A stretch of 64,000 nucleotides of DNA from Neoroseomonas eburnea (GTDB taxonomy: Bacteria; Pseudomonadota; Alphaproteobacteria; Acetobacterales; Acetobacteraceae). The notes under the pieces are model-generated. The model searched no databases. It had not been told where the DNA came from and saw only the letters and a list, made by a program, of their open reading frames with translations. The translations under genes were made by a program, and so were the position numbers. The stretch spans positions 62,001 to 126,000 of the forward strand of contig NZ_JAAEDL010000018.1 in NCBI RefSeq assembly GCF_018129005.1. Direction: 5' to 3'. Shown piece after piece: positions 7,551 to 53,389 of the stretch (its first letter is position 1; each line of letters opens with the position of its first letter).

Positions 7551-7760
7551 ATGCCCGACCTGGCTCCCCCCCGCCGTCAGCCCGAGGACCTGTCCTCCGT
7601 CGCCCTCCTGGAATCCGCGAAGGGCGCGGAACTGCACCTGCGCAGCCAGGAGGGCACGCTGCTGCGCGTGCCGCTCGGCGATGCGGACCACCTGCGCGGC
7701 CTTGCCGCGCTGGCGCTGATGGCCGGCGCGCTCGGCGCCATGGCGGCGAAGACCGCCTGA
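7551..7760 (+). CDS. Small hypothetical protein
   Basis: A 69-residue protein with no family I recognise. It has a polar N-terminus (PDLAPPRRQPEDLS), a mixed strand-like middle (GAELHLRSQEGTLLRVPLGD) and an Ala/Leu-rich end (GLAALALMAGALGAMAAK) that could be a single membrane-associated helix. The start is preceded by an AGAAAGG-like sequence. Its stop directly abuts the end of the converging SDR gene with no gap. Codon use matches the neighbours, so it is probably real. Confidence 0.6.
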   Translation: MPDLAPPRRQPEDLSSVALLESAKGAELHLRSQEGTLLRVPLGDADHLRGLAALALMAGALGAMAAKTA

Positions 7761-12896: not shown

Positions 12897-13051
12897 TCAT
12901 ACCAGCGGCACGAGTTCCTGACTCGTGCCGAGGCGGCGCATGCGGCCTGCCGGTCATCCGGCGAAGCCCAGCAAACCGGAGGTCTGCGCCCGGCGTCCGA
13001 GGGCACGAACAGGCTGGTACCAGCAGCCGCGAATGGCGGCCGTCGGTATCA
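12897..13051 (-). repeat. ~155-bp two-hairpin element, copy 1 (minus)
   Basis: Read on the minus strand it begins with TGATACC, whose TGA is the stop codon of the carboxymuconolactone-decarboxylase-family gene. It continues through a hairpin resembling those of the other copies, a conserved core (GTGCCCTCGGACGCCGGGCG and on) and a closing hairpin GGCACGAGT, 5-base loop, ACTCGTGCC. It aligns along its whole length with 31957-32110 and 46973-47130. No reading frame is conserved. Confidence 0.85.
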
Positions 13052-13582
13052 GGCCGCCGGCAGGGGGTCGGTGCCCTTGATCTCCAGCGCTTCCAGGACG
13101 CGGGAGACGCAGTTGTAGCCGGCGATGGTCACGGTCAGCTCGACGAGCTGCCGAGGCGGAAACAGGTCGCGCACGGCGGCGGCGACCTCGTCGGGGACAT
13201 GGACGTCGTTCGTCATGGCGTCGCAGTAGGCGAGCGCGGCGCGGTCCGTGGCGTCGAACAACGCGCTGCCCTCCCAGGCCGGCAACGCGTCGAGCTGCGC
13301 CTGCGTCATGCCCTCCGCCAGGGCGATCGGCGCATGCGCGTCCCATTCGTAGGTCGCGCCGTTGATCGCGGCGATGCGGCAGATCACCATCTCCCGCAGC
13401 CTGCCCGGCAGGGTGGAGTTCCAGCGCACCGCATCGAACATGGCGATCCAGCCCTGCGCGATCGGCGGGGCATGCAGCAGCATGCGGTGCAGATGGCCGA
13501 TCTTCCTGCGGGAGGCGCGGATCGCCTCCGCCGCGGCCTGGAGATCCGGCTGCGCGGGATCGGCATAGGGAATGCGGGCCAT
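13049..13582 (-). CDS. Carboxymuconolactone decarboxylase (AhpD-like) family protein
   Basis: A 177-residue all-alpha protein of the CMD family. The core helix reads REMVICRIAAINGATYEWDAH at about 63-83, with the conserved His83. The CxxC pair used by peroxidase-type AhpD proteins is absent (GATYEW instead), as in a common subfamily, so thiol-disulfide chemistry is unlikely. It is the last gene of the seven-gene TRAP/hydantoinase operon, and a strong ribosome-binding site (GGAGGAACC) precedes its start. A lactone- or ring-handling step in the same pathway is plausible but unproven. Its stop codon is the first base triplet of a dispersed repeat. Confidence 0.85.
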   Translation of the reverse strand: MARIPYADPAQPDLQAAAEAIRASRRKIGHLHRMLLHAPPIAQGWIAMFDAVRWNSTLPGRLREMVICRIAAINGATYEWDAHAPIALAEGMTQAQLDALPAWEGSALFDATDRAALAYCDAMTNDVHVPDEVAAAVRDLFPPRQLVELTVTIAGYNCVSRVLEALEIKGTDPLPAA

Positions 13583-30701: not shown

Positions 30702-31402
30702 GGGACGACGCAGCACTGGTCCTGTTCAGCGGCGGCCAGGATTCCGCCACCTGCCTCGCCTGGGCGCTGGACCGCTTCGCCCATGTGGAGACGCTCGGCT
30801 TCGACTACGGCCAGCGGCACCGGGTGGAGCTCGACTGCCGCGCGGCCTTCCGCGCCGCCATCCCGGTGCTGAATCCGGACTGGGCGGGGCGGCTCGGCCC
30901 CGACCACACGCTGCGCCTCGATGCGCTGGGCGAGGTGTCGGACACCGCGCTGACCCGCGACACCGAGATCGCCATGGGCGCCGAGGGCCTGCCGACCACC
31001 TTCGTCCCCGGCCGCAACATCGTCTTCCTCACCTTCGCCGCCGCGCTGGCCTATCGCCGCGGCCTGAAGCGCATCGTCGGCGGCATGTGCGAGACCGACT
31101 ACTCCGGCTACCCGGATTGCCGCGACGACACCATCAAGGCGCTGCAGGTCGCGCTGAACCTCGGCATGGAGCGGCGCTTCGTGCTCGAGACGCCGCTGAT
31201 GTGGCTGACCAAGGGCGACACCTGGCGGCTGGCGGAATCCCTCGGCGGGCAGGAACTGGTCGCGGCCTTGGTGGAACACACCCATTCCTGCTATCTCGGC
31301 GAGCGATCCACCCGCCACCCCTGGGGTTACGGCTGCGGCACCTGCCCCGCCTGCGAACTGCGCGCCAGGGGCTGGACCGAGTACGTTTCGGAGAGACTAT
31401 GA
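30698..31402 (+). CDS. queC: 7-cyano-7-deazaguanine synthase QueC
   Basis: A 234-residue ATP-dependent enzyme converting carboxy-deazaguanine to preQ0. The PP-loop SGGQDS is at 11-16. The zinc cysteines are near the C-terminus: Cys in HSCYLGE and the group YGCGTCPAC. It overlaps queG upstream and the VUT transporter gene downstream by ATGA. The earlier enzymes QueD and QueE are not in the window. Confidence 0.95.
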
Positions 31403-31959
31403 CCTCGCTCACCCCGCGCGCCGAGGGCGTGCTCGCGCTGATCGGCTTCGGCCTTTGCATTCCCGCGGCGAACTGGCTGATCGGCAATGCCGGCACGGTC
31501 TGCGTGCCGCTTGGTCCCTGCCTGGTGCCGGTGGCGCCGGGGGTGATGGCGCCTTCCGGCGTGCTGATGATCGGCCTCGCGCTGGTGCTGCGGGACCTGG
31601 TGCAGCGGCGGCTCGGCGTCGGCTGGGCGGCGGGTGCGGTGCTGGCCGGTGCCGCGCTCTCGGCGCTGCTGGCGCCGCCGGCGCTGGTGGTGGCCTCCGC
31701 CGTCGCCTTCCTGCTGAGCGAGATGGCCGACCTCGGCGTCTACACCCCGCTGCAGAAGCGCGGCCTGGTCCTGGCGGTGGCGGCGAGCGGCGCCGTCGGC
31801 CTGGTGGTGGACAGCGTGGTCTTCCTCTGGCTCGCCTTCGGCAGCCTGGACTACCTGCCCGGCCAGGTGATCGGCAAGGCCTGGATGGTGCTGTTGGCCC
31901 TCCCCTTCGTCCATCTGCTCCGCCGCCGCGACGAGCGTCGCGGCATCGTCCCGGCATAA
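31399..31959 (+). CDS. VUT-family transporter, probable queuosine-precursor importer
   Basis: A 186-residue membrane protein with about five or six helices. Features of the VUT (YhhQ-like) family are visible: [10 protein letters not shown] after the second helix, [16 protein letters not shown] in the middle, and [13 protein letters not shown] then GQVIGK near the end. Characterised members import preQ0, preQ1 or queuine. Its start overlaps queC (ATGA), which strongly supports that role here. It is shorter than the roughly 220 residues usual for YhhQ. The stop codon lies at the edge of a dispersed two-hairpin repeat. Confidence 0.85.
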
Positions 31960-32110
31960 TGCCAGCGGCCGCTATTCGCGACCGCTGGTATCCGCCTTTT
32001 CGTGCCCTCAGACGCCGGGCGCAAACCGCCGGTTCGCTTGGCTTCGCCGGACCACCGGCGGGCCACATTCGCGGCCTCGGCACGAGTCACAGACTCGTGC
32101 CGTCGGCATA
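31957..32110 (+). repeat. ~155-bp two-hairpin element, copy 2
   Basis: It begins at the stop codon of the VUT gene (TAATGCCAGCGG), has the first stem CCAGCGG...CCGCTGG, the core with GTGCCCTCAGACGCCGGGCG and GGCGGGCCACATTCGCGG, and the closing hairpin GGCACGAGT, CACAG, ACTCGTGCC at 32079-32101. It aligns end to end with the copy at 46973-47130. Confidence 0.88.
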
Positions 32111-32163
32111 ACGCGCCGCGCATCGCCACCGGCGATGCGCCCTGCCAGAGAAGGAAGGGGGAT

Positions 32164-46972: not shown

Positions 46973-47130
46973 TCATGCCAGCGGCCGCTATTCGCGACCG
47001 CTGGCATGAGGCTTTTCCTGCCCTCAGGCGCCGGGCGCAAACCTCCGGCTCGCTTGGCTTCGTCGGACTGCCGGCGGGCCGCATTCGCGGCCTCGGCACG
47101 AGTCAAGAACTCGTGCCGCTCGTATCATGC
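46973..47130 (+). repeat. ~155-bp two-hairpin element, copy 3 (most complete)
   Basis: The first hairpin is CATGCCAGCGG (46974-46984) paired exactly with CCGCTGGCATG (46998-47008). A core of about 85 bases follows, then GGCACGAGT (47095-47103), CAAGA loop, ACTCGTGCC (47109-47117). The ends are roughly inverted: TCATGCCAGCGG at the left and, reversed, a GCATGATACGAGCGG at the right. There is no coding frame conserved among copies. Confidence 0.9.
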
Positions 47131-53277: not shown

Positions 53278-53389
53278 TCATGCCAGCGGCGCTATTCGCG
53301 ACCCTTGGCATGAGGCTTTTCGAGCCCTCAGACGCCGGGCCGCATTCGCGGCCTCGGCACGAGTCAAGAACTCGTGCCGCTCGTATCAC
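53278..53389 (+). repeat. Two-hairpin element, copy 4 (internal deletion)
   Basis: The left hairpin (TCATGCCAGCGG...) and the right one (GGCACGAGT, CAAGA, ACTCGTGCC) are kept, but about 43 bases of the core present in the other copies are missing between GCCGGGC and CGCATTCGCGG. The ends of the deletion are short similar GC-rich words, suggesting slippage. It is otherwise close to the copy at 46973-47130. Confidence 0.85.

Follow-up and report, generated by a model that had tools for sequence, protein, structure and literature searches.

What is a non-coding hairpin element of about 155 bp that recurs four times within one stretch of a bacterial genome, each time close behind a gene, and is it kept as RNA, as DNA or as something mobile? 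An earlier note on this DNA had taken the compensated stems and variable loops of the repeat as a sign of selection on RNA or DNA structure. We followed the repeat from the window (the whole stretch of 64,000 nucleotides that was analyzed, G000:C18:62001-126000 of a 5.86-Mb genome in 89 contigs) into the rest of the genome and into related species, and the copies are very probably a MITE, a DNA transposon that is non-autonomous and served by a transposase acting in trans, in which a more widely spread structured core is embedded.

RESULTS

Make-up of the window copies

The four copies were confirmed from the letters at the positions first given for them. Their starts stood, and with borders drawn from TNA to TNA (46973-47127 for copy 3) three of the end points shift (Table 1). 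The last stem, GGCACGAGT/ACTCGTGCC, is present and identical in all four copies, as had been described, whereas a first stem on CCAGCGG is not common to all of them, since copy 1 begins CCGACGG, and the two core words taken as constant are each exact in some copies only (GACGCCGGGCG in copies 1 and 2, CGGCCTCGGCACGAG in copies 2 to 4). Copy 4 is indeed shortened, an internal deletion having taken out P1 and P2, and copies 1 and 2 do start within a stop codon. The copies also share one orientation relative to the preceding gene, which had been offered as a clue; it is uninformative because all four lie between convergent genes, where either orientation satisfies "follows a gene." The body of copy 3 matched itself at 100% and its best other genomic copy at 93% identity, and it gave no blastn match in the plasmid collection.

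Table 1. Parts of copy 3 and extents of the other window copies (positions in the window)
Feature	Position	Strand	Basis or remark
Copy 1, both duplications TGA, body 12900-13048	12897..13051	-	TGA 13049-13051 is the stop of the minus-strand gene 13049-13582
Copy 2, both duplications TAA, body 31960-32108	31957..32111	+	TAA 31957-31959 is the stop of gene 31399-31959
Copy 3, left TNA duplication (TCA)	46973..46975	+	Identical to 47125-47127
Copy 3, body, 149 bp, terminal repeats TGCCAGCGG…CCGCTCGTA	46976..47124	+	Profile match, model positions 2-149 of 149
Copy 3, first hairpin H1, includes left terminal repeat	46976..47006	+	Sequence, predicted fold
Copy 3, TTTT ahead of core	47013..47016	+	Sequence
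Copy 3, class-wide core CCTCA…; P1 47037-47053, P2 47061-47076, P3 47077-47092	47022..47092	+	Profile positions; core model R1
Copy 3, last hairpin H4, CGGCACGAGT/ACTCGTGCCG	47094..47118	+	Sequence
Copy 3, right TNA duplication (TCA)	47125..47127	+	Sequence
Copy 4, both duplications TCA, body 53281-53385	53278..53388	+	Without P1 and P2

Copy number across the genome

A pattern for the last stem, with up to three mismatches, matched the genome 112 times (62 forward, 50 reverse) against none for the reversed control pattern. Elements were mapped at 109 loci and in the window, together 92 segments of 452 kb that hold at least 100 of the 112 pattern matches, and a profile search of these segments returned 135 matches that were joined into 110 called elements, 91 of them two-ended. 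Three called pairs (C1:62083/62234, C33:50479/50593, and C58:5477/5559) are halves of one element, so that about 107 elements are mapped and the context counts over 110 given below are slightly too high. The figure of ∼107 is itself a lower bound because four more MITE-type cores (C2:108752, C2:205573, C9:123792, and C19:72677) lie outside the mapped segments. The element is short, multi-copy, and without an open gene, its bodies being mostly ∼149 or 194 bp long: among the 91 two-ended elements, 47 measure 140-149 bp, 25 measure 190-199 bp with ∼45 bp extra in the P3 loop, and 19 have other lengths. A few elements stand in tandem (C3:229293, C18:8096, and C4:71414). The earlier call of a repeated non-coding hairpin element thus held well beyond the four copies from which it was made.

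Ends, target duplication, and empty sites

The body of ∼149 bp has inverted ends, TACC(A/G)RCGG…CCGCTGGTA, and is flanked by TNA trinucleotides. Among the two-ended elements, TNA stands on the left in 74, on the right in 74, and on both sides in 63, and the pair is identical in 55 of these 63, against a permutation mean of 27.5 (0 of 20000 permutations reach 55), a direct repeat of fixed length. There are exceptions, as TNA is missing from at least one side in 28 of the 91 and differs between the two sides in 8 of the 63. At 76 of 97 left ends, the TNA is preceded by C. Inverted ends with a 3-bp direct repeat are the marks of a DNA transposon, a reading that the first description had left unconsidered and without which it was incomplete.

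At C4:87837-87984, a copy separates two genes, named by eye as acyltransferase-like and glutathione S-transferase-like, that are 4 bases apart once the element is removed. Its joined, element-free flanks match 1-503 or 2-503 of 503 bases at 85-88% identity in G021, G020, G018, and G009, four sister species in which the site is uninterrupted. The junction reads as a single TGA followed by the next gene in G018 and G009 and as a stop/start overlap, TGATG, in G020 and G021. A weaker match in G003 has a longer and different spacer, with the element absent from the stretch shown. Copy 2 of the window is likewise absent from the syntenic gap of G015, where the aligned blocks of the same gene pair are 6 bp apart, compared with 223 bp in this genome; the comparison is not a clean one, since the element accounts for only ∼155 of the 223 bp. 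At the site of copy 1, the neighboring gene is missing from G015 as well, so the difference exceeds the element.

Elements in G045, a genome of another family, end in TNA-TACCAGG and …GGTA or …AGTA-TNA, and of eight that we examined, seven could be read on both sides, six of them with equal TNA. A search with this end pattern gave 65 matches against 3 for a control, and of the 30 loci retrieved from these, all but L200/L222 (one place) are at a core, as judged by exact search, covariance model, or eye. A 42-bp palindrome stands by itself at L200 1500-1545, with TACC at its ends and TAA and TTA flanking it; it is perhaps an ancestral unit of the element ends.

Placement in gene gaps

With genes called by a home-made codon model, none of the 110 called elements falls inside a gene. 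Their neighbors are convergent for 68, both forward for 21, both reverse for 18, and divergent for 1, two elements having no neighbor on one side. The 171 element-free gaps of 20-400 nt in the same DNA comprise 15 convergent, 99 tandem, and 57 divergent ones, which gives a convergent excess (p ∼4e-22) and a divergent deficit (p ∼4e-13) relative to a background drawn from element-bearing neighborhoods.

In same-strand gaps, there may be a mild lean toward the downstream direction, but no significant preference was seen (21 versus 18 for all elements, p = 0.75; 21 versus 12 for two-ended elements, p = 0.16). A stop codon is hit exactly by 39 of 90 elements tested. Stop-codon targeting is not supported, as among the 89 elements with a usable emptied gap 38 do so and 33.4 are expected from random TNA sites in the gaps (p = 0.12). 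Starts at stop codons are thus accounted for by TGA and TAA being themselves TNA sites.

A core that occurs beyond the element

The interior of the element consists of CCTCARNCGCCGGGCG, hairpin P1 with an NTCC loop, CTTGGCT, and two hairpins. Copies in relatives keep this interior and have changed ends, so that between species the interior is more conserved than the ends; this is unusual for a MITE and counts against that assignment. In other genomes, the core often has a T-rich stretch upstream of it.

Covariance model R1, built on 14 core sequences and comprising 75 positions and 21 pairs, detected the core in 23 of 289 genomes of the class, this one included, and in 20 of 224 genera, with several genomes having at least 16 scored matches. 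The further copies that the earlier note had proposed to look for were thus found both in the genome and, with this model, in relatives. In a phylum sample, for which the share of other classes is not given, the same search found the core in 11 of 299 genomes, this one among them, all of the same class. The exact core pattern occurs in at least 117 stretches of named genomes, and the hosts among the matches listed are Roseomonas, Neoroseomonas, Azospirillum, Nitrospirillum, Magnetospirillum, Erythrobacter, and Sphingomonas. Of 35 genomes in the genus, the 15 that contain exact matches (from 4 to 48 apiece) are all of at least 4.8 Mb, and the 20 that lack them are all of at most 4.2 Mb, though some of these 20 give weak blast matches to the element.

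The present genome has 44 exact core matches, of which 37 share P1 with the MITE and 7 carry different stems, and at these seven no transposon ends were seen within 70 bases before or ∼90 after the core. One of the seven, L512, follows a tRNA-Leu gene at a distance of a few bases. In class genomes generally, the core is common, often in many copies and often without transposon ends. None of 104 named cores is inside a called gene (convergent gaps 35, reverse 32, forward 23, and divergent 14), and the median distance between their 5' side and a gene is 19-45 nt, rising to 156 nt in divergent gaps, with the 5' side by the stop codon or, when reversed, the start codon.

Several individual loci may be mentioned here. 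The core directly follows the gene for ribosomal protein L34 (PF00468) in L271 3112-3258, of Erythrobacter dokdonensis, and in L192 243-387, of G278, possibly one shared old insertion site. At L324 344-1429 (minus) and the adjoining core, the core is flanked by the gene for phenylalanyl-tRNA synthetase alpha (PF01409) and by a pheT-like piece assigned by eye (65 amino acids, without a Pfam match), and in L291 a core near 7682 is upstream of a similar pheT-like start. Tandem core arrays were seen in L449 6000-6467 and L514 1059-1500, with a period of 108 bp in an IMG/VR contig and of 136 bp in G009, and inverted core pairs ∼165-190 bp apart in L420, L424, L457, and L466, putatively viral contigs by their classification.

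We tentatively propose, as an idea that could well prove wrong, that the core is an undescribed class-wide element of ∼75-140 bp, made of P1 and two or more further hairpins, sitting beside stop or start codons, terminators, and a tRNA gene in Rhodospirillales, Sphingomonadales, and relatives, partly in tandem or inverted arrays, which would have its own means of spreading or its own function and which palindromic transposons that insert at TNA would have captured in several lineages.

Pairing in the stems

The compensation ascribed to the stems is weak within the genome and strong across species in the core hairpins. Among 72 distinct near-full copies from this genome, pairing and double changes do not stand out from the shuffles in H1, in P1, or between the left and right terminal repeats, and a single double change was counted in P2 and another in P3. 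The last stem alone exceeds the shuffles, and barely, with 94.4% of cells paired against 93.2 (maximum, 94.0) and 6 double-change cells against a mean of 1.6 (maximum, 5). The covariation sought in both the first and last stems therefore amounts to this slight excess in the last and to zero double changes in the first.

Across species, 97.0% of cells pair in alignment A3 (65 distinct rows; biased toward the model's structure by having been fitted to it) against 72.2 after shuffling, and there are 253 double-change cells against 76.4, a number that 0 of 500 shuffles reach in this fitted alignment. The first core alignment, built without the model, has 93.8% of cells paired and 18 double-change cells against 4.8 shuffled. 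In 127 distinct P1 segments, a half pairs with its own partner at 5.60 of 6 outer positions and with that of another copy at 3.47 (maximum, 3.74). NTCC forms the central four bases in 77 of 92 even-length P1 segments. The flanks of P1 are conserved as well, but they had served as the search key.

An RNA made from the written strand should give more G-U than A-C in its stems. Class-wide, the counts are 10 versus 15 for P1 and 17 versus 11 for A3. The stems of this genome give 5 versus 9 for H1, 6 versus 5 for P2, 8 versus 10 for P3, and 18 versus 17 for the last stem, and its P1 leans the opposite way (17 versus 46; p = 0.0003, the copies being related). These counts lend no support to a written-strand RNA signature, and DNA hairpins, quasi-palindrome correction, or the opposite strand remain as what lies behind the core stems. 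In the structural reading first put forward, selection on RNA is thus unsupported, given the weak compensation within the genome and a G-U/A-C balance that favors neither strand class-wide, while selection on a DNA hairpin, or the copying of one arm from its partner, may be at work.

DISCUSSION

Alternatives to a transposon

A cis-acting RNA element at gene 3' ends, be it a terminator, an mRNA stabilizer, or a 3' small RNA whose fold is under selection, would suit the position of the elements after genes, the TTTT after H1 that resembles an intrinsic terminator, the strong compensation across species, and the downstream lean of two-ended copies in same-strand gaps. That lean, however, is not significant and shrinks over all elements, compensation within the genome is slight, stems on the written strand have no excess of G-U over A-C, and the TNA duplications and empty sites demonstrate mobility, and we consider such an RNA unlikely. 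A narrower proposal concerns the compensation only: the core arms would stay complementary through replication templating (quasi-palindrome correction), with no selection on a fold. The scarcity of intermediates (1282 cells comprise 1227 Watson-Crick, 17 G-U, 11 A-C, and 27 other pairs) and the many distinct P1 stems in a single genome agree with it, but the prevalence of the NTCC loop in P1 and the P2 and P3 loops, also of one type, do not, since loops of a set type suggest a bound shape; we regard this explanation as doubtful, if with some real chance of being right.

Mobility by another route, as a REP or BIME mobilized by a Y1 (RAYT) transposase, would fit a palindromic, interspersed, intergenic, multi-copy element, and two core carriers outside the genus, G035 and G041, have one Y1_Tnp match each. 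Against it, Y1_Tnp (PF01797) has no match in this genome, for which we reject the RAYT/REP reading, or in the 14 further members of the genus that have exact core matches, and a TNA duplication suits a DDE enzyme; we judge it highly improbable.

Comparison with known systems

Insertion sequences of the IS1031 type, in the IS5 family, duplicate a 3-bp TNA target. The TNA duplication of our element is the sole feature that fits them, and a transposase with the element's ends was not found here. We know of no named insertion sequence that matches the TACC ends. Rhizobium intergenic mosaic elements (RIME) are mosaic palindromic intergenic repeats of Alphaproteobacteria, and the present element is like them by description alone.

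As characterized in a review (PMC10969869), bacterial MITEs are short and gene-less, with inverted ends, short flanking direct repeats, intergenic positions, and stable stem-loops, all of which apply here. They are typically AT-rich in that account, whereas this element is GC-rich, and its conserved core also occurs beyond it and without its ends. The CGTC and GTAG REPs, as described in PMC3733652, are 20-40 bp long with an unpaired tetranucleotide tag, the CGTC-tagged ones being commonest in Alphaproteobacteria and without a known dedicated transposase; our element is likewise a palindromic intergenic repeat but differs from that description in its ∼149-bp body, TACC ends, and TNA duplication, and has neither their size nor their tag.

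The absence of a named family that had been stated earlier agrees with Rfam, which gave no match over a gathering cut-off in the 64-kb window. A search of eight loci that admitted E values up to 5 gave matches overlapping a core for ncS011 only, with 24.2 bits at L128 1401-1511 and 15.9 bits at L126 1466-1668, both in relatives and far below its cut-off of 48. Searches of an open-access library brought up no description of this repeat.

Transposase and proposed mechanism

The MITE reading implies an enzyme acting in trans, probably a DDE transposase, which would recognize the terminal repeats and choose as target a TNA trinucleotide, usually one preceded by C, whose three bases are duplicated on insertion. 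Insertions would persist chiefly in gaps after genes, those in genes and promoter gaps being selected against, and the placement would reflect tolerance rather than targeting; an insertion on a TGA or TAA stop would be tolerated because the duplication restores the stop. TNA-inserting palindromes may have captured the core. A host effect, such as forming the transcript 3' end in both directions or stabilizing mRNA, is possible as a by-product.

No autonomous partner with the element's ends was found among the PF01609 and PF13586 matches of this genome, in an end scan of 2.51 Mb, or at the G045 loci. PF01609 has four matches here, none with TACC/TNA ends, and PF13586 has one sub-threshold match. 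The scan looked for two such ends spaced by 0.5-2.8 kb and yielded 20 candidate pairs, the best with 17 of 22 bases matching and most starting CGCC. At the 30 end-pattern loci of G045, with open reading frames listed at L200 only, no insertion sequence was seen. L365 1028-1920 holds a separate candidate insertion sequence, in which a DDE_Tnp_1 match is enclosed by perfect inverted ends of 16 bp, GAGACCTGTGCGCGGA, that are unrelated to those of the MITE.

Meaning

We class the window copies as a MITE family and assign it no parent element. The core, shared by forms with and without these ends, makes up a large and apparently unnamed repeat family whose stems are hypervariable yet complementary. 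About 100 insertions in one genome, some of them absent in sister species, provide a direct test of how small mobile elements are tolerated, and since the core occurs in cultured Azospirillum, Magnetospirillum, and Sphingomonas, its transcription and binding partners are testable.
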